A stretch of 23,894 bases of DNA from a virus: IMG/VR virus record IMGVR_UViG_3300037070_002977, positions 1 through 23,894 of that record. One strand, written 5' to 3'. Below, piece after piece: positions 2,209 to 23,894 of the stretch; position 1 is the first letter of the stretch; every line of letters starts with the position of its first letter. The notes beneath the pieces were generated by a model that was not told where the DNA came from, searched no databases, and worked only from the letters and a program-made list of their open reading frames with translations. The position numbers and the translations under genes are program-made.

Positions 2209-2209
2209 C

Positions 2210-2797: not shown

Positions 2798-2809
2798 TGT
2801 CTTGCCCTA

Positions 2810-3604: not shown

Positions 3605-3650
3605 TTTGCGACCCTCCGAAAGGGGTGTAAGTGATGTTAAAGGTTCCATC

Positions 3651-4445: not shown

Positions 4446-4470
4446 ATTCAGCGACCCCTATTTCAGAAGA

Positions 4471-5708: not shown

Positions 5709-7711
5709 CGGCGCGATCCAGCTTCTTGCGTCTCAGCAATCGGAACCCCCATGCGCCAATAGCCATCCAGCACATTCTGAGTAAGCTCATACCCGATATA
5801 ACGCCCTCGCACGCGGATGTCTTTCATCCCAGTTACAGGCGTCAGCGTAAAACTCTCGCTGTCAGCATTCACCGTCTTTAAACTCTCCCTGAATTGCGAA
5901 TTATTATTAATAAACTCTGGCTGCATCATAGGGCGATCCTGCGTAAATACACGTCCAGTGATGTCGCCAACTTGCCACTCAAAATCCGGCGAGAACCCAA
6001 AGATATCTAGATTTTTTTCAGCGCCATCGATCCGATAGAGACCAGATTTTAACGTAGTTATGAGCGGTTTTGCCGATGGAGTATCGTTTGGTCCACCAGC
6101 ATTAACTCCCACCTCGTGTTGGTAAATGAACCCATCATTGGATCCAAGAAGAATGCCCTTATTGACGCTGAAGGCAGCACTGGTGCGCGGCAATTCACCA
6201 GCTCCCCAATACCAACTGTCAATATTGACGAATACGTAATGCGTCGGCTCACTCGCCCCAGGAGACGGGGGTTCTTCCTCATATAGCCCACCGTCCGAAG
6301 GACCCGGTGTTCCACGATCCTTCGTATTTTCAGCGTTACCTAAGGCCGCCGTCCACCACACTTCACGCTCTGCCGCATTATACCAACAAGTCGTCTTTCT
6401 GCGGTTCAATGGCGTCATATTCCCATAGAACCAAGCATGGATATCATCACTGTTAGGAATGCCCTGCACAGAGCCATTGAAGATGTGAAAGCCATTGGTG
6501 CCAGCCCAAAATGCCGCCCCTTCTGCCATGCAAAAGGCACCCGGCCCAACCAGACCGCAATTCGTGCCAGCCATTCGTGACGAATAGACAAATTGCCCGC
6601 CAGTGAATTGAAATACATAGAGTGATGTATCCGACCATACGAGCGAAACGCCACCTCCCAGCGAACCTCCAGCAATCAATACATTACCTTTCGCCAGTCT
6701 CCGTTCGTTAGCCTTGCTCGTCAAACCAGGGGTCCAGTTCTGGGGATTATCCTGATCTGGCCAGGACACCACCATGTTTTTACGCAAAGCAAAGATGAAT
6801 CTCTCTTCTGTAACAAACACATAGATTACGTCGGTGGGGACGGGTGTTCTGTTAGACATAATGTCAGGGGGAGGGTCAGGAGGAGTAGCAGTAGGGGGAG
6901 GAGGATCAGTGAGATCCACTGGTATCGCTACCGCCCTGACATTATCTTCCCGATTCCACCAATAAATCGTTCCGCCTTGATATGCGGCAATTAGCTTAGT
7001 GCCGTAATTATCCAGCGACCAATAACGGGGCGTGATCTCACCCTCAACATCGCGTGCAGTGCCATAAAAATTATGACCATCGGGACCACCCTTCCCGTAA
7101 GGCCCGACGCCATATCCTTCTGTTTCAACCGCACCCGCTGTTCCAGTTCTCACTTCGTATCGTAAAGTGACCGTTGGTCCGCCGACATGTGGTTGCGTAG
7201 ATCCGGCTGGCTGATCGACAGTAATGCGATAGGCGTTAATGCCGAGAACATCGAAGATTTTATATGAACCATTGATGACTGGATTTGGCGCTCCGAGAAT
7301 TGGATCTGCTCCGCTGATAATCACGGTATCATTAACAAAAGCGCCATGGCTGAGATGACTAACTGTAACTACATCATCCCCTTCTATCGTTGTGAAGGGA
7401 TCCTCCACAGGGTTCGTTGTATCTGTGCGGATCGGCGTAATATTTTGTGGTGCATTTGATTCCTTAGAGATCTGTGAGATGTAAAGACGCACATCGGTGC
7501 CAACCGCATACACCTCTAATCCAGAAGCCACACGCCACACATGCGAACCACGAGGAATGCCCTCAAGTTTTTGAGGGAATAGCTTTATCCAGCCACCGAT
7601 TTTCTCGGCATGCCCGCCAACCCAACGAATGTGATTAGCCTCCACATAACGCCCTACAGAGGCAGCAAGGCTATCCGTCTTGACAACACCGGGAGGGAAT
7701 TGGATCTCCAT
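5705..7711 (-). CDS. Tail nozzle / DNA-stabilisation protein (P22 gp10-like)
   Basis: The frame encodes 668 residues from ATG 7711, six bases after the fibre stop. The N-terminus (MEIQFPPGVVKTDSLAASVG, then RYVEANHIRWVGGHAEKIGG) has the form typical of podovirus proteins related to P22 gp10: a P-P-G-V opening, an N-x-I/V-R-W/F strand and a KIGGW turn. Most of the chain is beta-rich and Trp-rich, as in beta-propeller tail nozzles such as T7 gp12 and P22 gp10. A proline-rich loop lies near residues 270-295 (DPPPPTATPPDPPPD). The protein would close the portal channel after DNA packaging and extend the tail. Its position after the adaptor and a fibre gene fits that role. The family call rests on motif recognition, not on a search. 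Confidence 0.82.
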   Translation of the reverse strand: MEIQFPPGVVKTDSLAASVGRYVEANHIRWVGGHAEKIGGWIKLFPQKLEGIPRGSHVWRVASGLEVYAVGTDVRLYISQISKESNAPQNITPIRTDTTNPVEDPFTTIEGDDVVTVSHLSHGAFVNDTVIISGADPILGAPNPVINGSYKIFDVLGINAYRITVDQPAGSTQPHVGGPTVTLRYEVRTGTAGAVETEGYGVGPYGKGGPDGHNFYGTARDVEGEITPRYWSLDNYGTKLIAAYQGGTIYWWNREDNVRAVAIPVDLTDPPPPTATPPDPPPDIMSNRTPVPTDVIYVFVTEERFIFALRKNMVVSWPDQDNPQNWTPGLTSKANERRLAKGNVLIAGGSLGGGVSLVWSDTSLYVFQFTGGQFVYSSRMAGTNCGLVGPGAFCMAEGAAFWAGTNGFHIFNGSVQGIPNSDDIHAWFYGNMTPLNRRKTTCWYNAAEREVWWTAALGNAENTKDRGTPGPSDGGLYEEEPPSPGASEPTHYVFVNIDSWYWGAGELPRTSAAFSVNKGILLGSNDGFIYQHEVGVNAGGPNDTPSAKPLITTLKSGLYRIDGAEKNLDIFGFSPDFEWQVGDITGRVFTQDRPMMQPEFINNNSQFRESLKTVNADSESFTLTPVTGMKDIRVRGRYIGYELTQNVLDGYWRMGVPIAETQEAGSRR

Positions 7712-7717
7712 CTGGTG

Positions 7718-8947
7718 TCACAGATAGTAGCCGTTAACGAAAAGTTGGAAAAGCGGTGCCGGCCCCCCAGTTGGCGGTCCTGACAGTTGCGTAAAATCCA
7801 GCGTGCGAGCCGCGACCTGTTGTGGCGTCTGCATCATCACAATCGCTTCCGATGTAAACGCATAATAGCCTGCAAGACGAATCTCCCCCAATGCCGCAGC
7901 AACCCCTGAACCACCTGTGGCTACCCGCACCTCTAACAACCCAGCACCTAAATTTCCCCTTACATTTACACTAAGCCGTACGGCAAGAGCTTCGGGCGGA
8001 ACGAGGGGAAGGCTGATGTTGCTAAAGTTATTATTGCCCCTAGGAACAGGACGCGCGTCCGCCTCAGCGCTAACTATGCTAGCCATATTGCCGGCTTGAC
8101 GAAAATCGATGAAGTTTTGTGATGCGTTCGTGCGGGCGCAGCCAACAAAGCCATAAAAGGTATAGCCACTAGGGAGAAAACCCGATGGGAGGGCAACCGC
8201 TCCGCCACCAGTCGGGCCTGGACTACCATTGGTTCCAGAGAGCATGGCATCAACGGTGCCGTCTGACTTGGCAATTAGATAAATTGAATACCAAGTGTCA
8301 GGGGCTCTAGCGATATTCACACGTCCACCAGCACCGCCTAATGTGATGTCAACTGGTTGCGATACAACACGAAAAGCTCTCAATCCTCCTGCCGTTGATC
8401 GAAGAACCGCAGCATCTGCCCTTATTATTATGTGAGTGGCATCCGTTCGATCCAAAACCAAGTTCCTATGAAAACAAAGCTGATTGGCATTGCCGATGGC
8501 GTCGTCAGGAGGTGGATTAAGGAAGATCCAGCAACCGCCAGTGATCGCGGTGGAATTATAAATAAGCTCTGCGATATATCCGGCTTGAAGGTCCCCTACC
8601 GCTAGATTTACAAATTGACCAAGAGATTGTTTCCGGATCGGCTTTGCAACTAAATCACCGTATTTAAGCGTTGGATTAAGGTTCGTATTGTCCTCATCAA
8701 TCCTTGCCCGAATGAGCAAACCAGTTATCAACGCCGGATCGCCGCCGGTTGCGTCAGGCGAACCGACATGGAGAGGCGTGTAGGTATAGGCTACCCCCGT
8801 GCCACTGGTGGAGATCGTTCCTCCCATGTCCCTGAAAATACGATCGACACCATCAAGGCCAGCATTAAGCTTATTGCCCCAGGTGTTATCGCTTCCACCG
8901 ATTTCCGGTTTGGTAAATTTATAAAGGGTGGTGACTGAATCTGGCAT
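7718..8947 (-). CDS. Tail fibre / receptor-binding-like protein
   Basis: The frame encodes 409 residues. ATG 8947 overlaps the adaptor stop as TGATG. The start (TLYKFTKPEIGGSDNTWGNK followed by LNAGLDGVDRIFRD) is a well-known fibre N-terminal motif: T-x-x-L/Y-x-K-P-x-x-G-x-x-x-T-W-G-x-K-L-N followed by D-x-x-D. The remainder is beta-rich, with many Gly, Ile and aromatic residues (GYIAELIYNSTAITGGCWIF; WYSIYLIAKSDGTVDAMLSG) and no coiled coil. It probably attaches to the tail by its N-terminus and carries a surface-binding domain. It is placed between adaptor and nozzle genes, which in T7 are adjacent. An enzymatic activity is not visible. Confidence 0.82.
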   Translation of the reverse strand: MPDSVTTLYKFTKPEIGGSDNTWGNKLNAGLDGVDRIFRDMGGTISTSGTGVAYTYTPLHVGSPDATGGDPALITGLLIRARIDEDNTNLNPTLKYGDLVAKPIRKQSLGQFVNLAVGDLQAGYIAELIYNSTAITGGCWIFLNPPPDDAIGNANQLCFHRNLVLDRTDATHIIIRADAAVLRSTAGGLRAFRVVSQPVDITLGGAGGRVNIARAPDTWYSIYLIAKSDGTVDAMLSGTNGSPGPTGGGAVALPSGFLPSGYTFYGFVGCARTNASQNFIDFRQAGNMASIVSAEADARPVPRGNNNFSNISLPLVPPEALAVRLSVNVRGNLGAGLLEVRVATGGSGVAAALGEIRLAGYYAFTSEAIVMMQTPQQVAARTLDFTQLSGPPTGGPAPLFQLFVNGYYL

Positions 8948-9627
8948 CAGCTTACCTGCACGTCAAAGGACATGCCACGACGCACACGGTCATCGAGCAC
9001 TGTGCCCTTCTGAATTTCGGATTGTGCTAAAGTGAACATCGTTGCCGCACGCTGTTCGTCCTTCAGAAAGACGTAGGAGAACCCCATCGCAGCAAATTTA
9101 AACGGATTACGCCAATCCGTCGTAAACAAATTGGTGAGATTGCTTGCTGAGAGCGGTTGGGGTCGCTCATAATACGAAAACCAGAATTTGAAATCCTCAT
9201 CAGCCTTCGTGTCAAAATACATCGTGTCGCCAAGGATCGCAAAATAGCGTGGGGCTGATTCGCTTAGCTCGCCATCCGTGCCGGTTGCACGGCGATAATC
9301 AATCTCATCTTCAGGCATAAATATCAGATCATTAAACCCGACCATGTAAAGCCGGATAGGATCGAGAAACAGAGAGATTAGAGGCTGATTCTCTTCACCG
9401 GAGGGTGGCGCAAAAAAGAGGCTAATCTCCGATTCTCCCACCGGAAGAGTAAGTGGGATCCGCTTTTGCATCTTGCGGACCCTCATGTTTCGGGAAAGCC
9501 ACTCCTCAGTGTCAGCTACGATATCCTTCGCCACAGCTCCCGACGCACCCGACACAGAGTCAGAGTTGACCCATGATGCAACGGAGCCTGGAGTAGCCTT
9601 GCCGGCAATCAGCGTATTGTAATCCAC
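8947..9627 (-). CDS. Head-tail adaptor protein
   Basis: The frame encodes 226 residues from ATG 9627. It begins MDYNTLIAGKATPGSVASWV, and helices with the pattern TEEWLSRNMRVRKMQ follow at about 40-57. Residues 57-72 (QKRIPLTLPVGESEISLF) and the later segment PRYFAILGDTMYFDTKADED followed by FKFWFSYYERPQPLSASN match the layout of podovirus adaptor proteins of the SU10 type: a strand pair, Tyr-Tyr, then Leu-S-x-S-N. C-terminal helices (FKFAAMGFSYVFLKDEQRAA) complete the fold. Such proteins form a dodecameric ring below the portal and link it to the nozzle, as T7 gp11 and P22 gp4 do. It follows the head genes and precedes the tail genes, as expected. Confidence 0.8.
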   Translation of the reverse strand: MDYNTLIAGKATPGSVASWVNSDSVSGASGAVAKDIVADTEEWLSRNMRVRKMQKRIPLTLPVGESEISLFFAPPSGEENQPLISLFLDPIRLYMVGFNDLIFMPEDEIDYRRATGTDGELSESAPRYFAILGDTMYFDTKADEDFKFWFSYYERPQPLSASNLTNLFTTDWRNPFKFAAMGFSYVFLKDEQRAATMFTLAQSEIQKGTVLDDRVRRGMSFDVQVS

Positions 9628-9647
9628 GCAAGGCCCCCAGCTGCCTT

Positions 9648-10349
9648 TTAGTGATTCTGACGTAGCTGCTCGTGGAGCATCGCCTTCGCATGGCGTTCCG
9701 TCTTCACAGCGCGACCGAACCGCGACTGGATAGCCCTTCGAACAAACTCGAACGGATAGTCCACCTTCCCATCCAAGTAGTTGATCGGGTGGAAGTCGTT
9801 GTAGTCGGTAGCGTCGTGTGTTCCTTCAACCTCGTCGCTGGTAGGATCCGGTTGGGATTTATCCCCTGGCTTGATCTCTACTTTTTCGAAGTTGAAATAA
9901 GTCTCTACCCCGTTGCGCACCTGCGAGAAGAAGGCACCGGTCGCATTGCCATCGGCATCCTTGTCCGTTCCGTATGTCTCGCCAAAATCGCGATTGGGAT
10001 TGAGCCGAAGACGTTTTTCTTTCAGCTCTACCTTTTTGCTCTGCAAGGCAGAAAACTCAGCAGAAAGCTTGGTCATTGCCACTTCGGGTGCAGATGCTGT
10101 TACTGCCACTGTTTCCTCCTGCTGATCGGCTTCCATATTGAAAAGCAGCTCAGCTGCCTGCTCACGCCAACGCATGTTGCGAATCTGGCCCCGTAGACCC
10201 AGCTTCACATCCAGGCGATCAACCTCGTCTTCAGTGAGATCGCGCACTTGCTCAAGTGTCGCGATCCCTTCAGTTGCCAGCTTGTCAGCTGTCCGTTGGG
10301 CGATCCCGTCAATTTCAGTCAACGCCGCAACATGGCTCCTAATATTCAT
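9648..10349 (-). CDS. Helix-hairpin-helix domain head protein
   Basis: I place the start at ATG 10349, with GGGGG nine bases upstream; a longer frame to 10424 would overrun the preceding small gene. The 233 residues open with a helix-hairpin-helix module at about 8-68: LTEIDGIAQRTADKLATEGI, then TLEQVRDLTEDEVDRLDVKL, then a GLRGQIRNMRWREQAAEL helix. The IDGIA turn followed by a helix and a T-L-E-Q-V helix matches the H-h-H/DUF4332-type domain in which a G-I-G or G-I-A hairpin contacts DNA backbone. Residues 95-120 form a Lys/Glu/Leu-rich helix. The last 65 residues (NYLDGKVDYPFEFVRRAIQS and onward) look folded and helical. A DNA-binding virion or head-completion role is inferred. Confidence 0.75.
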   Translation of the reverse strand: MNIRSHVAALTEIDGIAQRTADKLATEGIATLEQVRDLTEDEVDRLDVKLGLRGQIRNMRWREQAAELLFNMEADQQEETVAVTASAPEVAMTKLSAEFSALQSKKVELKEKRLRLNPNRDFGETYGTDKDADGNATGAFFSQVRNGVETYFNFEKVEIKPGDKSQPDPTSDEVEGTHDATDYNDFHPINYLDGKVDYPFEFVRRAIQSRFGRAVKTERHAKAMLHEQLRQNH

Positions 10350-10362
10350 GTTGCAGTGCCCC

Positions 10363-10554
10363 CTACGGAATCCGCTTGACCTTGTTGCCGGAAACAGATG
10401 CCGACAGATCAGACATCCCGCCACTCGACAGCATCGTCATGTCTGCCTTATGGCCAGGACCAGTAACAGCCTTCTCCCGATACGGGCCGGTCTCAGTACG
10501 GATCTTCTGCCCACGCGCAGAAGATTCAGTCACACAACAGTCGCTCTTCGCCAT
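10363..10554 (-). CDS. Small basic phage protein
   Basis: The frame encodes 63 residues. AAGGAG (10561-10566) stands six bases upstream of ATG 10554, one of the strongest ribosome-binding sites in the window, which supports a real gene. The product (MAKSDCCVTESSARGQKIRT, ending SASVSGNKVKRIP) is rich in Ser, Lys and Arg, has a CysCys pair near the start and no transmembrane segment. It stops 13 bases before the start of the helix-hairpin-helix gene. I recognise no family. Small genes between capsid and adaptor in phages often encode head-decoration or completion factors, but nothing here shows that. Confidence 0.7.
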   Translation of the reverse strand: MAKSDCCVTESSARGQKIRTETGPYREKAVTGPGHKADMTMLSSGGMSDLSASVSGNKVKRIP

Positions 10555-11292: not shown

Positions 11293-12288
11293 TTAGGCTG
11301 CAGAGCCCCACAGGATGACACGAGCATTCGTCGCATCGCTGTGAGTAAGCCCAAAGCCACCGCAATAATACCAAGCCGCAGCATGCGACCGGCCGAAGTC
11401 AGACGGGATCTTTGCGCGAACCTCTTCAGGAGTAACCACGCACTCCATCACAGTGTCGCCGCCAAAGAACAGAACCCAGCTGGATTTTGCATTGTTCCAG
11501 GGGTCCGACACATTCCCGAAGGCATCGAAGGTCGTTGAATCTTCTGCGCCACCCTTCGGAATATTGGTCTGCTCGACAAAGACGAAGCCACCGTAGCGAC
11601 CCATCTCCGACTCGAAGATCATGTTCAGGCCCGTCTCGGTGTAGACGTGCTTGACCTCAAGATCGTCCTTCAGCGCACGGAAGGTCGAGGGATGAGACGT
11701 TGCGATGTATTTGCCAACACGCGGATCAGGCGGGATATTCCGCTCACGCATCATGTCGTCCACGAGATTGATGTGCTCGCTCGACAACTCGATGTTGTTC
11801 GTGGTGACAGTAGTGCCGTTGGTGGTTACGGTCAGCGCCGTAGTGGAAGTGCCGCCCGTAGGCACGACAACGATCGGGGTGGCCGCAAACTGTAGCCACG
11901 ACGATGCGTCAAAGAACTTCCTGGCATTGTTCGACAGCGCCTTGTGGACGATGTCTGTCACCTGAAACTTCGCCAGCATCTCGGATTTGCTGGTGAAGGG
12001 CACCGCAATGCCGGCCTCAGTTACGAGCAGGCTGGACTGGGTGAAAGGGAAGGTTGTCTCGGGAATCGGCTCCAGCTCATCGAGCGCTCGCGCGGCGACG
12101 GCAGTGTCTCCGAAAATGTCCCAATAGAACCTATCGCCCGTATGATACGGCTTGTCCGCTTCAATCGGGTCCGTGAATTGCCGCATCGTCGCCAGCGGCT
12201 GAAGCGTCGTCCGAAGGATGTCGCTCAGATCTGCGTCGGTGCGGTATAGGAGTGTCTCGTTGCCACCCCATACAATACCTGCTGCCAT
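11293..12288 (-). CDS. Major capsid protein (HK97-type, N4 gp56-like)
   Basis: The frame encodes 331 residues from ATG 12288, with AGAGGA nine bases upstream. It has the layout of an HK97-fold coat protein: an N-terminal arm, a charged E-loop-like region near residues 40-75, a central domain, and a C-terminal strand system. The segment YIATSHPSTFRALKDDLE (194-211), then GLNMIFESEMGRYGGFVFVE (220-239), resembles the A-domain of N4 gp56-like coat proteins, where a glycine-rich strand follows E-x-G. The end (KIPSDFGRSHAAAWYYCGGF, GLTHSDATNARVILW) is typical of podovirus coat proteins. Its position after a scaffold gene and before small head genes fits. Hundreds of copies would be needed per virion, so its hidden ribosome-binding site is noteworthy. 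Confidence 0.92.
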   Translation of the reverse strand: MAAGIVWGGNETLLYRTDADLSDILRTTLQPLATMRQFTDPIEADKPYHTGDRFYWDIFGDTAVAARALDELEPIPETTFPFTQSSLLVTEAGIAVPFTSKSEMLAKFQVTDIVHKALSNNARKFFDASSWLQFAATPIVVVPTGGTSTTALTVTTNGTTVTTNNIELSSEHINLVDDMMRERNIPPDPRVGKYIATSHPSTFRALKDDLEVKHVYTETGLNMIFESEMGRYGGFVFVEQTNIPKGGAEDSTTFDAFGNVSDPWNNAKSSWVLFFGGDTVMECVVTPEEVRAKIPSDFGRSHAAAWYYCGGFGLTHSDATNARVILWGSAA

Positions 12289-13949: not shown

Positions 13950-15821
13950 TCAAGCTGCCAGCAGCAGAGCTACCACAGCTTCCTGATTCCTAATAGCCAG
14001 CTGCATAGCCTTTTGTTTTTTCTCGTCAATATCCTTCTTAAGGCGGGTAAGACGCTCTTTTCTTTGGTGAACAACCTCAGCTTCTCGCGTGGCGACTTCA
14101 GCCTTGCGTTGTTCGCGCAGTTTTTCAAGTTCTACGCGCGCCTGCGCGATGGCAACAGCAGTCTTTGTAGCTTCCAGCTCACCCTTATCGCTCTGAATAA
14201 ATGCTCGGGCAGGTTCTGTGACTGTCGGCTCTTTAACTGGCCGCTTCCATATAGCCTGTCGCTTCTCGTGAACCTTGTCCTTAAGCTGTTGAACCTGCTT
14301 TTCGGTAAGAGGCTTAGTAAGCGTTAGAGGCTTACGCTTAGGCTTGTGCCTTCTTTCCTCAAAACGAGTGACGGAAGTTCCAAGGTTGGTTTCCTCCTCT
14401 TCAACAGGCGCTCCCTCAACAAAACCATTAAAGTCAGCAGTATCGCCTCCGATTGGTTGACCACCAGTAATCAGGGGATTGATACGGCTCCCCGCACCCT
14501 CAGTAACAGCTAAACTGCCGGCAATAGGCACCGCACCAACAAATGTGGCGCTGTCTGCGCCACTCTCCGTAGCAACAAGGCTACCTTCGATACCGGCCTC
14601 TATCGACCCAACAAAAGCTGCCGTATCCGCCCCAATTTCGACGGCTGCAATCGTGCCCGTAATCGCCGCATCACCAACAAAGACGGCAGTGTCTTCACCG
14701 GTCTCTGTCGCAGCAAGTGAGCCAATAACCGCAATCGTGCCATTGAAGACTGCTGTGTCTGGGCCAGCCTCCGTTGCAGCCAGCGTGCCAGCAACATTGA
14801 CGTTGCCGTTTAATGTCGCCGTATCCGATCCCGACTCGATTGCCGCCAGTCCAGCTGCAATGGGAACAGTGCCGGTAAATGCTGCGGTATCAGGACCCGT
14901 CTCTGTCGCAGCTAGTGTGCCAGCGATGGGAACGGTGCCCGTGAAAACAGCCGTATCACTGCCGGCCTCCTGCGCAGCGAAATCACCGACTATGGTTGAT
15001 AGCGCACTACCAACGAAAGCGGCAGTGTCAGAGCCTGTCTCGGTAGCAGCAAGATTACCTGTAGCGGTGACAGTGCCGGTAAATGCTGCGGTATCAGAGC
15101 CAGTCTCTGTGGCTGCAAGATTCCCGACACGAGCAGCAAGAGTCTCTTTGAAAGCAGCATGTGCCGCTGCCGCATCGACAGCCGTCGCTGGCACAAAGGT
15201 CTTGGCGGTACCAGTGAAGATTGAATAATAATGACCAACCGCCATGTTGGTCTGTGCCGTTGAGCCAGTGGTGGTTGCAGTGCCCAGCGTAGTGAAGCCA
15301 GCGGCAGCACCCGGCACTACGTTATTCTCATCGGCAGCGCAGCCGACGAACAGATATTCAGCCGATGCCAGAGCAGAAATGGCGGCAGATGGATCTACGC
15401 CAGCGTCACCAGCTGCTCCCGCCGATCCAGCTACGCTGATCGTGCTTCCAAAATCGCGTGGATAATAACCAATGTGACAGGCACGAGCACGTGTCGTCGT
15501 CGTGTTAGTGATGGTGATCGTGCCACCAATGGGAATGGCATTGGTGGTGACCTTGTACCAAATCGAAGCGTGTGCGCCGGTCGCCGCAGAGCCCTGCCCG
15601 TTGCGGAAACCGGTCGCCAGCGTATAAGCGCCATTGCCAGCGTTGTCGGCTACACCGGAGATATCATCGGCACCTGTTAAATCGGTAGTGCCGGCATTAT
15701 CAGAGGCAACGCAAACAACGCACAAACTGCCTGCTGGGACAGCAACAGCGAGCGTATGGACGAGAGTGGTACCAGTTTTACTGTTGGCGCTGCCGACGAC
15801 AACAGGTGTGCCGAAGGCCAT
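13950..15821 (-). CDS. Large repeat protein with beta N-terminus and charged helical tail
   Basis: The frame encodes 623 residues from ATG 15821, with AGAGG five bases upstream. Residues 1-228 form a Gly/Thr/Ala/Val-rich beta domain (VVVGSANSKTGTTLVHTLAV; ASIWYKVTTNAIPIGGTITI) that resembles Ig-like or jelly-roll phage modules. Residues 233-470 are ten tandem repeats of about 22 residues (GxLAATETGxDTAAFxGxVxxA). Residues 475-623 are strongly charged and helical, with long Lys/Arg/Glu runs (ARVELEKLREQRKAEVATRE; RLKKDIDEKKQKAM). It lies between a small beta-rich gene and the acidic gene before the scaffold, where T7-like phages have no such gene. A virion fibre or head-decoration role is plausible; the charged tail could dock it. 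No function is established here. Confidence 0.85.
   Translation of the reverse strand: MAFGTPVVVGSANSKTGTTLVHTLAVAVPAGSLCVVCVASDNAGTTDLTGADDISGVADNAGNGAYTLATGFRNGQGSAATGAHASIWYKVTTNAIPIGGTITITNTTTTRARACHIGYYPRDFGSTISVAGSAGAAGDAGVDPSAAISALASAEYLFVGCAADENNVVPGAAAGFTTLGTATTTGSTAQTNMAVGHYYSIFTGTAKTFVPATAVDAAAAHAAFKETLAARVGNLAATETGSDTAAFTGTVTATGNLAATETGSDTAAFVGSALSTIVGDFAAQEAGSDTAVFTGTVPIAGTLAATETGPDTAAFTGTVPIAAGLAAIESGSDTATLNGNVNVAGTLAATEAGPDTAVFNGTIAVIGSLAATETGEDTAVFVGDAAITGTIAAVEIGADTAAFVGSIEAGIEGSLVATESGADSATFVGAVPIAGSLAVTEGAGSRINPLITGGQPIGGDTADFNGFVEGAPVEEEETNLGTSVTRFEERRHKPKRKPLTLTKPLTEKQVQQLKDKVHEKRQAIWKRPVKEPTVTEPARAFIQSDKGELEATKTAVAIAQARVELEKLREQRKAEVATREAEVVHQRKERLTRLKKDIDEKKQKAMQLAIRNQEAVVALLLAA
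14412..15125 (-). repeat. Ten tandem 22-residue repeats within the large repeat protein
   Basis: Reading the protein, units start at residues 233, 255, 279, 301, 323, 345, 367, 389, 413 and 435. The consensus is G-[NST]-L-A-A-T-E-[TS]-G-[SAP]-D-T-A-A-F-[TV]-G-[TS]-V followed by three or four variable residues. Two units carry two extra residues, and the last carries a longer insertion (GAGSRINPLITGGQPIG) before its DTADFNG half. The DNA repeats diverge at many third positions, so the copies are old or kept by selection on the protein. Confidence 0.9.
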
Positions 15822-16202: not shown

Positions 16203-19200
16203 TTACGTAGCCTCTCCGTTCACATGCTCTACTCCCTGCACACGACCATCTTCGCCGTAGACCACGCGCTTCGGAGCCTGCATGGCTTGCATCATCTGAA
16301 TAAGGACTTGCTGGCTCTGCTGCTGCGTCTGCGCGAGCATGGTAAGCGTCTGGGTGAGCTGGTTGGTGCTCTGCATCAAGCTCTGCGCTGCCTGCTCCAT
16401 CGCCGTTTCCATCGGCAACGGCTCACGCGCCTGTTGCGGTGTCAGGGTATCTTGAGCCTGGGCTGTAGCCTCATCGATCATCTGCTTGTTATGCGCAGCT
16501 GCTCGCAGCCCAAAGTCCTGTTGACCAGTTCGCTGCTGATGCTGAAAATCTCGTTCAGCTACCGCCTGTTGGTACTGTGAGTCGCGTTGCTGCTGTTCAG
16601 CGTTTCGATCAGCCGCTGCTTGAGTCGCTGCAAATTCACGATCCTTATTGGCGAACTCACGCTCCCTAAAGCCCAGCTCTTGCTGCGCCAACTGGTTGGT
16701 TGCCTGATGCTCGCGATCAGCCTGCCGCTGTTGCTCAGCAAATTGACGCTCCTTAATCGATTGTTCTTGTTCGAATCCCTGCTGCTTGAAGGTTTGGTCC
16801 TGCTGAAGGCTCTGCTGCTTGAAGGAACTCTCTTGCGAAAGGGCGTCAATCTCAGCCGCAATCTTTTGCCGCTCCAGCTCCAGCTTCTCTCTTTCGACTT
16901 GGTTCTTTTCCTGCGCGAGCTGAAGATCGACCTGTTGTTTTTCCTTCTCCAGCTCCAATCGCTGAGCATCAAGATCCGCCTTTCGCTGATCCGATTCCTG
17001 CTGTGCCTGGATCTTCATTTGATCCGAGTGCATCTGCGCTTCAATCTTCATCTTATTCGGATCATTTTCCTGCGCTTGCTGCTGCTGCTCCATCATCTTC
17101 TGCTCAGCTTCTTCGGGGCTGGTGAAGGTAAAAATACGTGCCGCAGACACACCGGTCGAAGCCCAGATTTCAGCAAACAGCTCTTCAGCTTTCGGCTGCA
17201 CCTGACCCATAACCATGGGCGCAACCTTCATGCTCACATCGACAGCCGCATTAATGCGCTGGAGTTTCTGGACCGGATCCCCCGCTCCGGGTCCAATGCT
17301 TATCTTGGTTGTCAGCTGTCGGTCTAAGATCTCGTCCAGAATGAGATCTGCACCAAAGCGCTGATAGAGGTTTCCCTTTTTAGCCAGAAGCGAAAGAAGA
17401 TTCTGGTCTGTCTCGTAATACTGCTCCAGCCACACGATGTGGCGAATTACCGGCTCCGCCCAGGTTTCCAAAAAGACCGCAAGATCGAAATCCTGCGTCG
17501 TGTTAGCGGCTGAACTAACCAGCTGCATGCCACGCGCTGTCTCACCAATCGCTCTGCTGGACTGCACAGTTGACGTAGCGAAGGAGCCGGCCAGCTCGTC
17601 AAACTGCGAATTAAGCCGATCCATCTCGGCATAGATTGTCGCATTCGGCCCCTGGATCGGCTGGAAGCGAATATCCTTGTCGAGATCAGAAACGCCTATG
17701 GTAGCGTCGGGACCACGCTCGCGAACCGCTCTCAAGTCTACGTTAGCGCCCATCCGGTAAAGCGTGATTGGCGCAATCGCCTGCTTCATCGCATCGATGC
17801 GCAGGTTCGTTGAGTCGTTGATCTCGTCTTGAAGGGGTCTCCACGCCTCAACGTGGGACATCGGGATGGCAACATGCGGCTCAATGGAGCCAACTCCCAT
17901 CACATAAGGACGCTCGCCACGATGTGCTGGGTAATGCCCAACCTCACCCGTCTCACCGGGCTCTGAAAGCAGATGACGCGTACCTAGCGACCAAAAGTGA
18001 TAGTCGATCCCATCCACACGGACGAAATTCTCATGCACCCACACAACTTCGAAGTCGTTGACGCTTGGCTGCGCACTGCGCCCATAACGGTCTTCATTTC
18101 CCGTGCGTGAGGTGCGAACACCGGTATTGCTGGTGTCGTTAATGGCATTCGCCATTACCTTGTCGGGGATCTCAAACCATGGGCCACCGCCCATGTGCTG
18201 GGACCCAGGCTTCATCATCGCCTTCACATCCCCAACCTTCATGGGATGTTTTACTATTAAGAATTGCCCGTCCTGAAATACGTCCCACCATGGAGCCGCC
18301 ATATCGACAATGACGTTCTCTGGCTCGATGTGGTAAATCATCGGCTTGTCGCGCAGGATCTTACGCTGCACCGGCAATCCGTTCATGCCGACGACGTTTA
18401 ATTCCTCAGACTCGCCCATATCCATGGGCATAGGCATACCGCCACCCATAGGTGGCATCATGGGCAGGTTTGGAGTAGGAGGCGGCATGCCCGTCCCCAT
18501 AGGGGGCATAGGCTGCGGTGGAGGCATGCCTGTCCCCATCGGCGGCATGCCCGGAGGTAGCATACCAGTGTCCATGGGAGGCATCCCCTGTGGCGGGGGC
18601 ATTCCTCCTCCCATAGATGGATCCGCCCCCATCGGGGGCGCATTGGGATCCATAGGCCCAGGAGGCGGCGCAGCCTGAGGAACGCCAGCGGTGAGGTCTA
18701 CGTTCGGATCAGCGGATGGAGGTGGAAGCGCTGGATTGGCAAGATGCTGTGCTTGCCCAGTTTCCGGATCCTCCTCTTCGTCGCCCTCCTCAATTTTTTC
18801 CTGAAATTCCCAGGAAGTTTTGGCGACCGAGATACCAGCCACACAGACATCAAATCCCGCCCCGAGTGCCATCTTCACCCAAGGAATGCCAGCTTTCCGG
18901 CCAGTAGAGCGATCAAACCGATAATTAATCAGCGCATGATTTAACTCAGCGCTTGCCTGCTGATCAGGATCGGTATCGTCTTCTGCCGTAATTGTTACAG
19001 CGTCGTCGGTGCTAAATAGCGCTGCCCGAATGGCAACCAGCTTATTTTTAACGGCTGAGCGGGTCTTTGGAATGAACAGCCTTGATCGAGCCGAGTAATT
19101 CTTATGAGCGTATTTTGAACGATAGTTATGTTCGTTACGATAGGATTCATTGGAGCGAGCCATCGCTCCTCTGCGGCGACCGAGATCGGTGCTATTGGCA

Positions 19201-19355
19201 TGAATGACAGCCGCACGCGCCATAGCCATCAAGCGCTTCGATAGAGCGTCTTTGTCTGAGTCCGGGCTGTCGAGCCCGACACTGGAAGAGTTAGCCGATC
19301 CGATAATCTGGCTAAGCTCAGCGCCACGTAATTGTTCGGCAGGCTCTTCAATCAT
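16203..19355 (-). CDS. Portal protein with Pro/Met insert and long Gln-rich tail
   Basis: I choose ATG 19355, whose ATGA overlaps the preceding stop; GTG 19364 would add three residues. The 1050 residues exceed usual podovirus portals of about 500-760. Residues 55-185 match a portal N-terminus (YRSKYAHKNYSARSRLFIPK, TRSAVKNKLVAIRAALFST). An insert at about 205-315 is Pro/Met/Gly-rich. Residues 320-745 hold the clip, stem and crown-type core, including IPMSHVEAWRPLQDEINDST, NLRIDAMKQAIAPITLYRMG, and the SSRAIGETARGMQLVSSAAN helix. From about 748 to 960 the chain is Gln/Glu/Lys-rich coiled coil, ending with PKRVVYGEDGRVQGVEHV, a motif seen at portal C-termini. It forms the dodecameric vertex for DNA packaging. 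No terminase gene is in the window. Confidence 0.92.
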   Translation of the reverse strand: MIEEPAEQLRGAELSQIIGSANSSSVGLDSPDSDKDALSKRLMAMARAAVIHANSTDLGRRRGAMARSNESYRNEHNYRSKYAHKNYSARSRLFIPKTRSAVKNKLVAIRAALFSTDDAVTITAEDDTDPDQQASAELNHALINYRFDRSTGRKAGIPWVKMALGAGFDVCVAGISVAKTSWEFQEKIEEGDEEEDPETGQAQHLANPALPPPSADPNVDLTAGVPQAAPPPGPMDPNAPPMGADPSMGGGMPPPQGMPPMDTGMLPPGMPPMGTGMPPPQPMPPMGTGMPPPTPNLPMMPPMGGGMPMPMDMGESEELNVVGMNGLPVQRKILRDKPMIYHIEPENVIVDMAAPWWDVFQDGQFLIVKHPMKVGDVKAMMKPGSQHMGGGPWFEIPDKVMANAINDTSNTGVRTSRTGNEDRYGRSAQPSVNDFEVVWVHENFVRVDGIDYHFWSLGTRHLLSEPGETGEVGHYPAHRGERPYVMGVGSIEPHVAIPMSHVEAWRPLQDEINDSTNLRIDAMKQAIAPITLYRMGANVDLRAVRERGPDATIGVSDLDKDIRFQPIQGPNATIYAEMDRLNSQFDELAGSFATSTVQSSRAIGETARGMQLVSSAANTTQDFDLAVFLETWAEPVIRHIVWLEQYYETDQNLLSLLAKKGNLYQRFGADLILDEILDRQLTTKISIGPGAGDPVQKLQRINAAVDVSMKVAPMVMGQVQPKAEELFAEIWASTGVSAARIFTFTSPEEAEQKMMEQQQQAQENDPNKMKIEAQMHSDQMKIQAQQESDQRKADLDAQRLELEKEKQQVDLQLAQEKNQVEREKLELERQKIAAEIDALSQESSFKQQSLQQDQTFKQQGFEQEQSIKERQFAEQQRQADREHQATNQLAQQELGFREREFANKDREFAATQAAADRNAEQQQRDSQYQQAVAERDFQHQQRTGQQDFGLRAAAHNKQMIDEATAQAQDTLTPQQAREPLPMETAMEQAAQSLMQSTNQLTQTLTMLAQTQQQSQQVLIQMMQAMQAPKRVVYGEDGRVQGVEHVNGEAT
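18411..18743 (-). repeat. Pro/Met/Gly-rich repeat insert in the portal gene
   Basis: Imperfect units of the form P-P-M-G-T-G-M-P-P-P-Q are repeated (PPQGMPPMDTGMLPPGMPPM, GTGMPPPQPMPPMGTGM, PMMPPMGGGMPMPMDMG) and interrupt the portal core after residue 205. The upstream flank is acidic (QEKIEEGDEEEDPETGQAQH). The core resumes at ELNVVGMNGLPVQRKILRDK. DNA units are also similar, so slippage or unequal recombination may change the number of copies. Confidence 0.85.
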
Positions 19356-19762
19356 CGCTGCCACTCACTCGGCAAGACGTATCGCGTCTCACCAGTTACC
19401 CAGTTGCGCTCCGTAAGCATTCCATGGATCGCACGGTGATTTCTTTTTCGCTCTGCTGCCCAGTCTTCCTCTCGCCGCTTGCCTCTTGGCTGGAATGCAC
19501 GCTCTAGCAACTCACCAGCCGCCTTCTTCACAGATTTGTAGCCAGGATCGCTGGCCAAATCCCGAAGCTTAATCACATAAAACGTATTCTTTGGAGCAAG
19601 CGGATGAGTAAGTGTAACTATTCCATGGTCGCTCTCGTAATCGACACGAAAATGATGCCCAGGATATTCCTTTTCAGCCACCTGACCGATAGTCGTGGCA
19701 AGCATGACATCGCGAAACGCTTTGTCTTTCTCGGTGCGATCAGAATATTTAGCCAGCCACAT
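19352..19762 (-). CDS. Small basic protein upstream of portal
   Basis: The frame encodes 136 residues from ATG 19762, with GAGG about nine bases upstream. It begins MWLAKYSDRTEKDKAFRDVM, then LATTIGQVAEKEYPGHHFRV. Strands near VDYESDHGIVTLTHPLAPKN and FYVIKLRDLASDPGYKSVKK are followed by a helix-rich basic tail (GKRREEDWAAERKRNHRAIH). The alternation of strands and helices suggests a small alpha/beta fold. Its stop overlaps the portal start (ATGA), so translation is probably coupled. I recognise no family and see no catalytic motif. Confidence 0.7.
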   Translation of the reverse strand: MWLAKYSDRTEKDKAFRDVMLATTIGQVAEKEYPGHHFRVDYESDHGIVTLTHPLAPKNTFYVIKLRDLASDPGYKSVKKAAGELLERAFQPRGKRREEDWAAERKRNHRAIHGMLTERNWVTGETRYVLPSEWQR

Positions 19763-19773
19763 CGGTTAGGGCC

Positions 19774-20382
19774 TCATGCAGTCTCAAGCAGCAATACGCC
19801 GCCATCTTCCAGCAGCAACTTGTCGCCACTTTCCAGAAGGAATTCGAAATCCGATCCAACGCTGGGGAAGTTCGGTATAATAGGCGCTGTTGCTATCCCC
19901 TGCATATTCCAGCCACGAACTACCCATAACCCAGCCTCAACGGCATCCGCCACCCAGTAGGTTTGCGCTGGAATGGGCGCGTCAGCGACACTGTCCGCAA
20001 CAACATTATTGATACGATCACCTGAGCTGGAAGCAGTGCGCAGCTGATGAGCTACCGCAGACCAGCCCCGTATCATCTTACCCTGAACCAAGATCGGAAG
20101 ACGGATCCAATCATTCGAGTCAGCCGCAATAGTATGGACGTACACCAAACCATTGATATCAGAAGGGATTTTTGAATCAGCTTCGTCAGTACTTCCAGGG
20201 AACCTCTCCAACACAGCGGGAGTAGGAATAGGTGTTGATACTATTTCGATTAAGGAGCTGGTATAAAGAGCCAATGCATTTGTCGTTGTGTTGGCAGGCG
20301 AGCCATCCTTAAGAAGAGGAACAACCTCTCCACCGGTCAGTGTCCCAGCATTTGGAGCGTCATTTATGGCTAATCCCGGCAT
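19774..20382 (-). CDS. Tail-fibre-like protein with LLLE-repeat C-terminus
   Basis: I choose ATG 20382 (TGATG overlap with the upstream stop); GTG 20385 is an alternative. The 202 residues begin MPGLAINDAPNAGTLTGGEV, then VPLLKDGSPANTTTNALALY, a frequent phage tail-fibre opening (A-L-T-G-x-E-x-V-P-x-x-x-G). The middle is beta-rich with tryptophans (SNDWIRLPILVQGKMIRGWS; QTYWVADAVEAGLWVVRGWN). The end repeats a short unit three times: FLLESGD, LLLEDGG, LLLETA. Such LLLE-type tails occur in phage structural proteins, by recollection. A fibre adaptor, spike base or capsid-associated role is possible. Confidence 0.72.
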   Translation of the reverse strand: MPGLAINDAPNAGTLTGGEVVPLLKDGSPANTTTNALALYTSSLIEIVSTPIPTPAVLERFPGSTDEADSKIPSDINGLVYVHTIAADSNDWIRLPILVQGKMIRGWSAVAHQLRTASSSGDRINNVVADSVADAPIPAQTYWVADAVEAGLWVVRGWNMQGIATAPIIPNFPSVGSDFEFLLESGDKLLLEDGGVLLLETA

Positions 20383-20699
20383 CACTCAGTTTCCCAAAGA
20401 ACATCCAGAACGGATCCCCACATCATGGGAACAGTCGGCGTCCACTGAAGCGTAGTTCCAAGATCTGGATCTGTTACTATCGGCGGCGGTATCACGTCTG
20501 GCGGTATCACTACCGGCAGTCTCGGCCCTCCGTAAGCCCCTCTCTTGTTAGGGTCGGCATAGAATAAGCGTCGATGAACTCCGGAGCCAAATTCGTACTC
20601 CAAGACCTTCCGCTTCTCATGCTCGCGCTCTGGGTCAACCGTGCGGACCCAATGCTCGAAATCACGAGTTATGTAGCGGACATTACCAGCCCCAGCCAT
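20382..20699 (-). CDS. Small hypothetical protein with Pro-rich middle
   Basis: The frame encodes 105 residues from ATG 20699, two bases after the preceding stop. It starts MAGAGNVRYITRDFEHWVRT, followed by VDPEREHEKRKVLEYEFGSG. Residues about 58-78 are proline-rich (GGPRLPVVIPPDVIPPPIV), and the end is hydrophobic and aromatic (TPTVPMMWGSVLDVLWETE). GGGG is present upstream but spacing is long. Its stop overlaps the next start (GTGATG), which supports it as one unit of the operon. I recognise no family. Confidence 0.65.
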   Translation of the reverse strand: MAGAGNVRYITRDFEHWVRTVDPEREHEKRKVLEYEFGSGVHRRLFYADPNKRGAYGGPRLPVVIPPDVIPPPIVTDPDLGTTLQWTPTVPMMWGSVLDVLWETE

Positions 20700-20701
20700 T
20701 T

Positions 20702-22729
20702 TTAATACAGAACCCCGTAGTGCTTGCTGCCAGCGGGAATGGTCGCATTCATCACAGCGTCAGTCGGGAAGCTGCAAGGCGAAGCAGCATGCAAAGCAGT
20801 CAGCGCAGCAGTAGGCGTCCCATCAGGATTAACGTATTGGACTCCAGCCAGCCCATGGGCCTCCATTCCCTGTTCACTCGGCCATGGTGATGCCTGCGCC
20901 ATGGCGGACGTGAAAGGCACCAGATCGTTGTAGGCAACCATCGCTGTGCTGCCAGGATTGGTGTGGCGAATTAAATCCCCTGCATTGGTCGCATAAACAT
21001 TGCAGTCATAGACCATGCCATTCGGCAGGATCTCGTCCAGCTTGAGATTCGCAGGGCCGTTGAGGCGGGTAATGCAAGTGATCGTAGTCGCCCCACAGAG
21101 GCCGGCGCTGACGGGATAGGCAAAGATGTTGCCCTGTATGACATCCATGCTGGTGAGCCAGTTCAGCTCAGTTGGCAGCGTTGCCCAGCTCGCTGCCCAC
21201 CGATCACTCGAATAGCCGCCGCAAGACGCGCCATTACTTGCCAGCTTGCCGGTTGTAGCGCAGTCCAGCGCTGAGCGACTGTCGGCATAAATGCCTACCG
21301 TATCCTTGCCGCCAACAATGGTATTGTTGAGGATACGCACGTTAGAGGATCCGGCAATCTTCAGCGCCGTCCCTACTGGGGCTTTGATGACGTTGTTATA
21401 AAAATCCAACGCGTCCGAGATTTCGTAAAAGAACGAAGTGCCTTCGCCGGCAATGCCGCTCCCCTCAAACGTGTTGTTAAACACCTTGGCGTCCCAGTTG
21501 CTCTGGTCGAACCAAACGCCGTGTGAGGAATTGTTGCCGAAGTAGCTATTTTTTATAACAGTATGGATGGTGCGGCTGGTTTTAATCGCCCCCGATTGCG
21601 GGCTGGAGGAGAACTCGTTCCAGGGGTCCATCCCAGTCATACGCACACCATCAAAGACCGCGCCATCGGTGTACACCAAATTAACGCCCATCCAGTTACT
21701 GTCGGTGATCGTAGCGTGTTCGATCTGCGTATCCTCTAACGCATCACTGGAGGTTCCCTGTAGGAACAGGGCAACGGTGACATCATCGATCACCACATCA
21801 TGGAGCTTAAGCCGGTCAGCTGTCGGGCCGAGATCCAGCATCGACGCTTTGGCTTGGGAGTTGCAATAACGCTGCACGGTGAACCCGGCGAGTGTTACGT
21901 CAGCCGCCTGGACAGTGATGAAGTCCCCCAGATTGCAAACCGCAATCTCGTTCTGAGCAGCATCCTTAGTGGAAGCCATCAGGTAGACGCGATTATTGGT
22001 ACGATCGACCCAGAAGCGATCTTCGTTGAGATCAGCCTTCTTCACGACCTCTTGGAGCTTCTCACCATCCACCCACACTTGGTCGATGTATTTACCAACG
22101 TTGTAGGGATAGACAGTGTCGGTTCCATTGAGGTTATCACTGCCGCTTTCAGTGCAGAACGTAATTCCAAAACCATTGCCGCATGGACGTGGGGTATAAG
22201 CGGCCCATTTATAGGTGCCTTCCTTCGTCCACGCATTGTCAAAGATGTTAACTGAGCCGTCGAAAACCACCGTCTCGCCTGGAGCTGCCAAAAGCTGGAT
22301 ACCGGGCTTTTGGATATAAATCTCGGTTCCCCACGACGAACCATTCAACGTATTCCCCTGGTTCTTGTAGGTGCCGCCCTTCACGATGATCGGATCACCA
22401 TTCGCAGCCTTGTTGATGGCGTCCTTCAGGCTGGCGCAGGGAGCAGTCTCGCTGCAAGCCGTGCCGCTGCCATTGGTGGCCACATAACGTGGCGTGCCAT
22501 CCAGATCTGCGACCGTGTAGGTCAGGGGTAAATGTGCGCCCGCATTGGCTGACGGATTAACCAAAGGCTCAGGAGGGATCGGCGGTTTGGTGGGTTTAAG
22601 GGTGAGAATTGTCTCGACACAAATCTCATCACCGCTCTCTGATGTAATACATTGCGAGTTGTGGCTTTCTTGCGCCACCCCAATCCCAGCCCCAAATAGC
22701 AGAGCGGCTACGGTAATAAATGATTTCAT
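20702..22729 (-). CDS. Signal-peptide beta-helix protein, possible polysaccharide lyase/depolymerase
   Basis: I choose ATG 22729 because AGGGGG stands four bases upstream and a Sec signal peptide follows (MKSFITVAALLFGAGIGVAQ, likely cut after Ala 19); a longer frame to 22786 would overlap the upstream small gene. The mature region has several Cys residues. Residues about 81-121 (RYVATNGSG... APCASLKDAI.. NGDPIIVKGGTY) are the classic cap of right-handed parallel beta-helix proteins, followed by many N-x-T/S-I/F and N-N-T-I turns (FNNTFEGSG, LNNTIVGGKD). This fold is used by pectate/alginate-type lyases and by phage tailspikes. No catalytic triad can be assigned by eye. It may digest capsule or biofilm polysaccharide. 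The signal peptide is unusual for a spike. The 675-residue length fits either reading. Confidence 0.8.
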   Translation of the reverse strand: MKSFITVAALLFGAGIGVAQESHNSQCITSESGDEICVETILTLKPTKPPIPPEPLVNPSANAGAHLPLTYTVADLDGTPRYVATNGSGTACSETAPCASLKDAINKAANGDPIIVKGGTYKNQGNTLNGSSWGTEIYIQKPGIQLLAAPGETVVFDGSVNIFDNAWTKEGTYKWAAYTPRPCGNGFGITFCTESGSDNLNGTDTVYPYNVGKYIDQVWVDGEKLQEVVKKADLNEDRFWVDRTNNRVYLMASTKDAAQNEIAVCNLGDFITVQAADVTLAGFTVQRYCNSQAKASMLDLGPTADRLKLHDVVIDDVTVALFLQGTSSDALEDTQIEHATITDSNWMGVNLVYTDGAVFDGVRMTGMDPWNEFSSSPQSGAIKTSRTIHTVIKNSYFGNNSSHGVWFDQSNWDAKVFNNTFEGSGIAGEGTSFFYEISDALDFYNNVIKAPVGTALKIAGSSNVRILNNTIVGGKDTVGIYADSRSALDCATTGKLASNGASCGGYSSDRWAASWATLPTELNWLTSMDVIQGNIFAYPVSAGLCGATTITCITRLNGPANLKLDEILPNGMVYDCNVYATNAGDLIRHTNPGSTAMVAYNDLVPFTSAMAQASPWPSEQGMEAHGLAGVQYVNPDGTPTAALTALHAASPCSFPTDAVMNATIPAGSKHYGVLY

Positions 22730-22737
22730 AATGCCCC

Positions 22738-22890
22738 CTACTTTTTCTTTTTGGTTGCCGAAGTTTCTTCCTCTGACCAATCCCATCTTGATGCAGCAGA
22801 CGGATAACCTACGTGAACTTCTTCCTCTGCCTCTTCCTTAGGAGCAGGCGTCGGCTCTTCCTCAGTCTTCGTTTTCTTAGGCGCTGCCAT
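22738..22890 (-). CDS. Very small Lys/Glu-rich protein
   Basis: A 50-residue frame runs from ATG 22890 to TAG 22738-22740. AGGAG (22897-22901) is six bases upstream, and the stop of the preceding gene (TAG 22902-22900) overlaps this ribosome-binding site as TAGGAG. The product starts MAAPKKTKTEEEPTPAPKEE, contains HVGYPSAASRWDWSEEE and ends TKKKK. It is highly charged and likely disordered except for the Trp-containing middle. Its stop sits in the ribosome-binding site of the next gene (TAGGGGG), so three genes are tightly coupled. The function is unknown; a linker or assembly peptide is one possibility. Confidence 0.75.
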   Translation of the reverse strand: MAAPKKTKTEEEPTPAPKEEAEEEVHVGYPSAASRWDWSEEETSATKKKK

Positions 22891-22899
22891 TGCAATCTC

Positions 22900-23894
22900 C
22901 TATCGTTGCTGGAGGATTTTCTTCTCGTATTCGATCATATCCACGTCCATCACGAGAGTTGACGTGGTGCCAGCTGATTTGACTGCGCCAATTCCAACGC
23001 CCAGTCCTGCTAATGTCGGAATATTGGTCGTCATCGGAACTGCAATTTTTGGCAGTCCGTCGATATAGAAGGATGCGCTGGTTCCCTCCATATTAACGAA
23101 GATATAGTAATTACGATCTTCGCCAGCCGTGAAGACAACACCAGTATCGACTGCCGTTTCTGTTCCGGCCGCACGACAAACAGCTTCCCACTTGCCGCTA
23201 TTAACGCTGTGCGTGTAACGGAAGAATACTCCGTTGGTCGCCACACCTACGGCAGTATCGAGAAAGCCCATCCGCACCGTGAAGGTATTGGTCCCGTCAG
23301 ATAGGACAAGCTCCTTCGCCACGAAGTAGCAATGCGCCTCACCAAACCCGAGCCGGATAGGCACGGACGAAGTCGCAATAGCAGCAGCGCCTGTTGTGGT
23401 TGTCCCCAAATTCAGCCGCAGAACGCCAGGATGATGCTGGGTCCATGGAGTTACAGCTGCAACGTCCGCACCCGTTCCTGTAACCGTCGCAACAAAATCA
23501 CCCGTGCCACCCGGCGTAGAGGCACCCCCAGCTATGCTGATCGGCGCTAAACAGTCGGTGTATCCGTAGATACTTGTGCGACGATGCGGAAAAGGCTCTC
23601 CTCTTAAATCCGGCGGCCCAGCTTCAGCATCATAGTTCATGCTGAATTGGTAGTTAGAACAATAATTGTTATCGACAATCTTGATACCGTAAGTGACCCC
23701 AGGAACCGACCCTGTGATGTGGAATGTCAGTGGGCTATGGCTGTTGGCAGGACTCACGGTATCAGCTGGATCGTTAGGCAACTTATCTGGTCCTGTCGCC
23801 TGCAAATAACTAAAACTGTTGTTGGCAAAAGTAAAATTATGGCTGTCATTGATACGAATTATGGCATCATTTCCGCCAACCGATAGGTCCGGAC
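22900..23894 (-). CDS. Tailspike-like protein, C-terminal part (start outside window)
   Basis: The frame stays open to the right edge, so the start lies beyond base 23894; a TTG at 23805 should not be taken as the start, since the same frame continues upstream (PDLSVGGNDAIIRINDSHNF and so on). The visible 330 residues begin with one or two turns that resemble a parallel beta-helix (NDAIIRINDSHNFTFANNSF). The C-terminal 160 residues form a lectin-like (concanavalin A-type) module: GVFFRYTHSVNSGKWEAVCR, then NYYIFVNMEGTSASFYIDGL, then a GVGIGAVKSAGTTSTLVMDV strand and DMIEYEK. Such modules often end phage spike proteins. The likely role is binding surface glycans, with hydrolysis possible in the unseen part. 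Stop TAG 22902-22900. Confidence 0.75.
   Translation of the reverse strand, partial: PDLSVGGNDAIIRINDSHNFTFANNSFSYLQATGPDKLPNDPADTVSPANSHSPLTFHITGSVPGVTYGIKIVDNNYCSNYQFSMNYDAEAGPPDLRGEPFPHRRTSIYGYTDCLAPISIAGGASTPGGTGDFVATVTGTGADVAAVTPWTQHHPGVLRLNLGTTTTGAAAIATSSVPIRLGFGEAHCYFVAKELVLSDGTNTFTVRMGFLDTAVGVATNGVFFRYTHSVNSGKWEAVCRAAGTETAVDTGVVFTAGEDRNYYIFVNMEGTSASFYIDGLPKIAVPMTTNIPTLAGLGVGIGAVKSAGTTSTLVMDVDMIEYEKKILQQR

Follow-up and report, generated by a model that had tools for sequence, protein, structure and literature searches.

The DNA analyzed here, viral record IMGVR_UViG_3300037070_002977 at its full length (positions 1 to 23,894; referred to below as the window), is a 23.9-kb fragment of 23,894 nucleotides with virion-type genes only. 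The gene of interest, designated P0001, lies on the minus strand (22729 to 20702) and is an open reading frame of 675 codons followed by a TAA stop codon. It encodes a beta-helix protein (Pfam Beta_helix, E = 4.8e-11) with a predicted signal peptide. The ATG start codon (22729 to 22727) follows, at a spacing of 4 bases, a Shine-Dalgarno-like AGGGGG (22739 to 22734, minus strand) that overlaps the TAG stop codon (22740 to 22738) of a small upstream ORF. The coordinates, start, and reading frame given for this gene in an earlier note on this DNA were correct. The only other in-frame start codons within the first 80 codons, a GTG at codon 18 and a TTG at codon 56, both lack a good ribosome-binding site, and the next in-frame ATG is codon 251. 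Thus, it seems unlikely that translation of P0001 starts downstream of its hydrophobic N-terminal segment.

Genes surrounding P0001

The genes next to P0001, like those for the portal and major capsid proteins, are also on the minus strand. A translationally coupled ORF for a 50-amino-acid protein rich in lysine and glutamate (22738 to 22890) is immediately upstream, preceded by a gene for a likely tailspike or fiber (22900 to 23892) that is cut by the end of the window. The product of the latter has an SO2946-like C-terminal lectin-type domain (PF22237, E = 2e-11) and, ahead of it, beta-helix-like rungs that were recognized by eye only. The earlier note had described P0001 as coupled to its neighbors by stop codons inside ribosome-binding sites. 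This arrangement was found at the two upstream junctions, from the likely tailspike to the small ORF (TAGGAG...ATG, 22902 to 22888; TAGGAGATTGCAATG) and from the small ORF to P0001 (TAGGGGGCATTATG, 22740 to 22727), but not at the downstream junction, which is tight (TAA, 2 nucleotides, ATG) with the stop codon outside the ribosome-binding site.

Just downstream of P0001 is a gene for a conserved protein of 105 amino acids (20382 to 20699) with homologues in the same place in related loci L007 and L086 (tblastn, 40% over 57 amino acids). It is followed by a gene for a 203-amino-acid protein with no family match in Pfam or PHROG (19774 to 20385), and then by a gene for a conserved protein of 136 amino acids (19352 to 19762; 39 related loci by tblastn), which adjoins the portal gene and marks the end of the cassette. 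The portal protein (16203 to 19364, 1,053 amino acids; PHROG 1216, E = 5e-21) has homologues in Vibrio phages. The major capsid protein (11293 to 12288; PHROG 1357), which served as the query for finding relatives, is 42% identical to those of Vibrio phages and up to 62% identical to those of IMG/VR relatives. By its portal and capsid proteins, the phage is related to Vibrio phages of the podovirus type and to numerous IMG/VR records. Elsewhere in the window, a 623-amino-acid protein (13950 to 15821) contains about ten repeats of the form NLAATETGSDTAAFTGTV, and an acetyltransferase-like gene for 150 amino acids (4471 to 4923; GNAT by eye) with homologues in seven related loci lies in the virion block.

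In the relatives that were inspected, the terminase gene is followed by variable genes, then by a gene for a conserved protein of about 136 amino acids, and finally by the portal gene, with small local differences. Judging from these relatives, the terminase gene would lie beyond the end of the window and P0001 between terminase and portal. The variable genes of the relatives encode tail fiber- or tailspike-like proteins, and P0001 occupies this slot, just upstream of the portal gene. The cassette of L017 encodes a beta-helix protein of 1,054 amino acids, those of L136 and L140 encode fibers, and that of L086, the nearest long relative, encodes a 1,464-amino-acid protein and a beta-helix-like protein of 350 amino acids. 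In L012 (3 to 3398), three similar-looking proteins of about 342 to 395 amino acids, the first of them cut by the end of the locus, are encoded in tandem and are probably paralogous receptor-binding proteins. Three further features were seen in L086. Towards its C-terminal end, the 1,464-amino-acid protein (5993 to 10387) has a PhoD-like phosphatase domain (Pfam, E = 1.4e-10); a cassette protein of 102 amino acids (4243 to 4551) has a twin-arginine-type start (MNRRELLIGTAAAGAATLLPAPA) with a weak match, below cutoff, to the Pfam TAT_signal model; and the large terminase (1013 to 3622, 869 amino acids) contains an apparent intein-like insertion (CTIGSMRILMSD...VIEGFCSSNS), recognized by eye only.

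Predicted signal peptide, beta-helix, and cysteines of P0001

Residues 1 to 19 of P0001 (MKSFITVAALLFGAGIGVA; 22673 to 22729, minus strand) are predicted to form a Sec signal peptide with an uncharged core of 17 residues and with cleavage after A19 and before Q20 (MKSFITVAALLFGAGIGVA/QESHN). The prediction was made with a home-made score that combines the charge of the N-region, the hydrophobic core, and the -3/-1 rule, with about 97 kb of annotated E. coli K-12 sequence as the calibration set. P0001 scored 6.98, compared to a maximum of 5.14 among 45 cytoplasmic E. coli proteins, and fell within the range of 18 E. coli proteins exported via Sec with SPI signal peptides (6.5 to 9.8). No other protein in the window scored above 3.4, and only 3 of 2,000 shuffles of residues 2 to 45 reached 6.98. 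P0001 also passed a stricter test in which the score is combined with a minimum length of 11 residues for an uncharged hydrophobic core; the cutoffs of the core rule were set by hand after these proteins had been seen. This strict test was passed by 18 of 21 exported and by none of the 45 cytoplasmic E. coli proteins. However, BcepIL02 gp62, a Burkholderia phage fiber with an ordinary N-terminus, passed as well, so the test is imperfect and a score near 7 does not by itself prove a signal peptide. The start of P0001 is short and positively charged, the residues at -3 and -1 are small (G17 and A19), and polar sequence follows directly after the site. The exported-protein signal that the earlier note had read at this start is supported by both the score and the strict test.

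The beta-helix that the same note had proposed was also recovered. Residues 328 to 487 (21269 to 21748, minus strand) match the right-handed beta-helix model PF13229 of Pfam with 43 bits, above its cutoff of 25.9. A cap region at the start of the helix (residues 79 to 160, YVATNGSGT...APCASLKDAINKAANGDPIIVKGGTY; 22250 to 22495, minus strand) is similar to the entry part of beta-helix proteins from bacteria and phages, with weak matches to a pectate lyase of Bacillus phage SP-15 (E = 0.03), to PHROG 11333, and to a secreted protein of Paenibacillus (37% over 108 columns). The NosD model in Pfam (PF05048) was matched by residues 328 to 487 with 27.7 bits against a cutoff of 23.6, but the corresponding NCBIfam model (TIGR04247) gave 30.3 bits against a cutoff of 300, and the NosD match was read as generic beta-helix similarity. 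Distant matches in the PDB, to NDM beta-lactamases (E = 0.04), were taken as chance. AlphaFold, run on the single sequence without relatives, gave a pLDDT of 33.8. No lyase or glycosidase family model in Pfam or NCBIfam matched P0001, which leaves the suggestion that it is an enzyme unsupported. No head-binding domain was matched in Pfam or PHROG, and no virion-anchor domain was recognized.

The "several cysteines" noticed earlier amount to 14, or 2.07% of residues, compared to 0.41% in the other genes of the window (about 5-fold; binomial P of about 1e-6). Most of them form close pairs (27/37, 92/98, 183/192, 265/289, 490/503, and 545/552, with further cysteines at 576 and 652). Six of the seven successive pairs are at most 24 residues apart, an arrangement expected in about 1% of random placements. 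This pattern fits disulfides formed outside the cytoplasm, and the enrichment and pairing lend independent support to the signal peptide. Signal peptide, cysteine pairs, and operon structure thus agree with the proposal in the earlier note of an exported beta-helix protein made together with the late virion genes, as far as can be judged from the sequence.

Close relatives of P0001 were not found among 50,697 phage records, in plasmids, in IMG/VR by peptide-pattern search, among the ORFs of about 160 related loci, or in GTDB genomes, where six 8-residue patterns were used. A degenerate-DNA scan for HG[VIM]WFDQ gave mainly terminase-like genes, and phmmer identified no relative of P0001 among the products. 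Beta-helix or secreted proteins encoded on plasmids of Paenibacillus and Deinococcus showed weak resemblance to P0001.

Predicted export signals on other fiber- and spike-like proteins

To regard P0001 as an isolated oddity would be too narrow a view. The main new result is that predicted export signals are found repeatedly, in several phage lineages, on proteins resembling tail fibers and tailspikes. Upstream of the portal gene in 104 loci, 259 ORFs reach a length of 200 amino acids or more, and 4 of them passed the strict signal peptide test; two of the 4 look like real genes, and both are tail fiber-like (L136, 6945 to 8045; L140, 8954 to 9862). Near its N-terminus, the L140 protein aligns with PHROG 33320, the tail fiber of Bcep781. 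The Burkholderia phage proteins Bcep781 gp49, Bcep1 gp51, and BgManors32 gp48 had signal scores of 8.4 to 9.3, and the GenBank entries for the first two carry the note "possible signal peptide domain." In the open-licence literature, we found no paper on signal peptides of tail fibers and no explanation of this note. A scan with the Bcep-type signal peptide fibers yielded 27 IMG/VR loci, including near-duplicates and the Bcep phages themselves. In about 25 of these loci, the predicted signal peptide directly precedes the motif QF.PGQ.LTA.QLN or a close form of it. L215 has this motif without a signal peptide.

A second type combines a predicted signal peptide with a QTYPSPTFNSLTLQNPL shaft and a beta-helix-like body. 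It was found in L200, L201, L203, L206, and L210, and also in Shewanella phage vB_Sb_QDWS (OK094664), in an unannotated 687-amino-acid ORF (L216, 3947 to 6010) that is masked by QDWS_23 and the opposite-strand gene QDWS_24. The protein of L196 combines a signal peptide with a pectate-lyase-like domain (Pfam, E = 7e-10), and in that of L208, the signal peptide is accompanied by a beta-helix start of the DUF1565 type and by 14 cysteines.

The signal peptide fiber of L136 and an ordinary fiber of L135 are 64% identical over 174 residues and differ at their N-termini, which shows that either kind of N-terminus can be joined to one and the same body. In addition, L136 carries an ordinary fiber beside its signal peptide protein. 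Xanthomonas phage PBR31 has a clear signal peptide on a putative structural protein, orf035 (L217, 3806 to 4615), whose gene directly adjoins that of the ordinary tailspike, orf034. In Bcep781 and Bcep1, the signal peptide protein is the only fiber recognized in the stretch examined. As a possible test, virion proteomics of phage JC1, which is Bcep22-like, was considered, but it does not decide the matter because the JC1 fibers fail the strict signal peptide test.

P0001 shares a right-handed beta-helix and a place in the adsorption cassette with podoviral tailspikes of the P22/Sf6 type, such as PBR31 orf034. However, those tailspikes have a head-binding N-terminal domain and lack a signal peptide, whereas P0001 has a predicted signal peptide, cysteine pairs, and a proline-rich linker. 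With its predicted signal peptide, and with the head-binding domain unmatched, P0001 falls outside the definition of a podoviral tailspike. With Bcep781 gp49 and Bcep1 gp51 (PHROG 33320 and 32740, "tail fiber protein"), P0001 shares a late virion-gene position, a Sec signal peptide, and a large body; Bcep781 gp49 has 15 cysteines and, by eye, pectate-lyase-like stretches. As for Bcep781 gp49, a cleavable Sec signal peptide is predicted at the annotated start of P0001, by sequence score. Both Bcep proteins have QF.PGQ.LTA.QLN after the signal peptide, whereas P0001 lacks this motif, and no sequence similarity between them and P0001 was detected. Neither the motif nor the GGTG/TGPL shaft is present in P0001, which matched neither PHROG 33320 nor PHROG 32740 and showed no significant similarity to the other signal peptide fibers. 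The QDWS ORF and the proteins of L196, L208, and L210 are like P0001 in joining a signal peptide to a beta-helix-like body in a phage, but they have a fiber shaft of GGTG repeats between the two, and P0001 has none. A bacterial protein, WceF of Pantoea stewartii, which is encoded in an exopolysaccharide cluster, is a Tat-exported, trimeric, tailspike-like glycanase with demonstrated activity (PMC7949094). Like WceF, P0001 combines a tailspike-like beta-helix with an export signal; unlike WceF, it is phage encoded, has a predicted Sec signal, and is known from sequence alone. In its presumed function, P0001 is similar to podoviral tailspikes and to WceF. By its features, it is a cysteine-rich beta-helix protein with a predicted signal peptide, encoded in the adsorption cassette of a phage, and it fits neither the podoviral tailspikes nor the Bcep781-type fibers.

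Possible roles of P0001

On balance, we lean, without much confidence, towards P0001 being an exported, disulfide-bonded beta-helix protein that binds or cuts glycans and acts outside the cytoplasm and the virion, as one of a recurring class of signal peptide fibers and spikes. P0001 would belong functionally to the cassette of phage adsorption proteins. Its translation would be coupled with that of its neighbors, as gene order and overlaps indicate, and it would presumably be made late. The signal peptide would direct it through the Sec system of the host and be removed after A19, and the cysteine pairs would be oxidized in the periplasm. From there, or after lysis, P0001 may bind or trim surface glycan of the host or of neighboring cells, outside the virion, which is the least certain step. 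It would be one case of a fiber- or spike-like protein in which a Sec signal peptide replaces the ordinary virion-type N-terminus. Points against this reading are that the signal peptide test is home-made and lets an ordinary fiber (BcepIL02 gp62) through, that P0001 is unlike the other signal peptide fibers, with neither their QF.PGQ.LTA.QLN motif nor their GGTG repeats, and that it carries no signature of a lyase or glycosidase; the sole recognized fiber of Bcep781 and Bcep1 also counts against it. P0001 could just as well take part in adsorption, occupy receptors, or attach late to virions as act as a free polysaccharide-degrading enzyme, because signal peptides recur on fibers and spikes and because the gene lies in the slot that receptor-binding-type genes occupy in its relatives.

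The main rival is that P0001 is a virion tailspike that reaches the particle by a detour: exported, processed, and oxidized in the periplasm, it would join tails after lysis or at the envelope, and the signal peptide would mark an assembly route rather than a free enzyme. The signal peptide proteins do occupy fiber and spike positions, and the mature start left after cleavage, QF.PGQ.LTA.QLN, resembles that of fibers without a signal peptide, such as the one in L215. Moreover, the fact that Bcep781 and Bcep1 have no second recognized fiber in the stretch examined would be easier to reconcile with a virion protein than with a free one. However, P0001 has no attachment-type motif, the ordinary fiber or spike beside the signal peptide protein in L136 and PBR31 favors a free protein, and we know of no established periplasmic route of spike assembly in tailed phages. 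We regard this detour as unlikely, though deserving of attention.

It is less probable still that P0001 is captured bacterial cargo, a secreted beta-helix protein that serves the infected host or the phage population and is unrelated to adsorption. The weak resemblance to Paenibacillus and Deinococcus plasmid-borne or secreted proteins and to NosD would be in keeping with such an origin, as would the lack of a recognized virion-anchor domain. However, the codon usage of P0001 is typical of this phage, which argues against a recent bacterial import; the gene sits in the adsorption cassette; the combination of signal peptide and fiber or spike recurs in phages; and no close bacterial relative was found, in bacterial genomes searched by short patterns only. 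At about the same low level of probability, and marginally below it, the N-terminus could stay uncleaved as a membrane or virion anchor on a normal virion protein assembled in the cytoplasm, given that some ordinary fiber N-termini are partly similar (BcepIL02 gp62), but the small residues at -3 and -1, the short positive start, and the polar stretch after the site fit a cleaved signal peptide, and the cysteine pairs fit an oxidizing compartment.

In the textbook view of tailed phages, fibers and spikes are assembled in the cytoplasm. The recurrence described here suggests that, in some phages, proteins of the attachment type exit the infected cell on their own, apart from the virions. A broader proposal, which we offer tentatively and consider somewhat doubtful, is that many tailed phages of Gram-negative hosts export a receptor-binding-type protein through Sec, with P0001 as a beta-helix member. 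Such a protein would be either a decoy, by which receptors are occupied or stripped, or a spike that completes its maturation in the periplasm and is added to virions once the cell has lysed. If so, there would be an unrecognized second pool of adsorption proteins, and the receptors targeted by a decoy would be those on the infected cell, on its neighbors, and on debris. Both options are directly testable in isolated, sequenced phages, namely, the Bcep781 group, Shewanella phage QDWS, and Xanthomonas phage PBR31. Surveys of depolymerases that assume a virion location may misplace such proteins. If the export signals on this recurring class of fibers and spikes are genuine, either receptor-binding proteins have a second use outside the cell or there is a new route of assembly.
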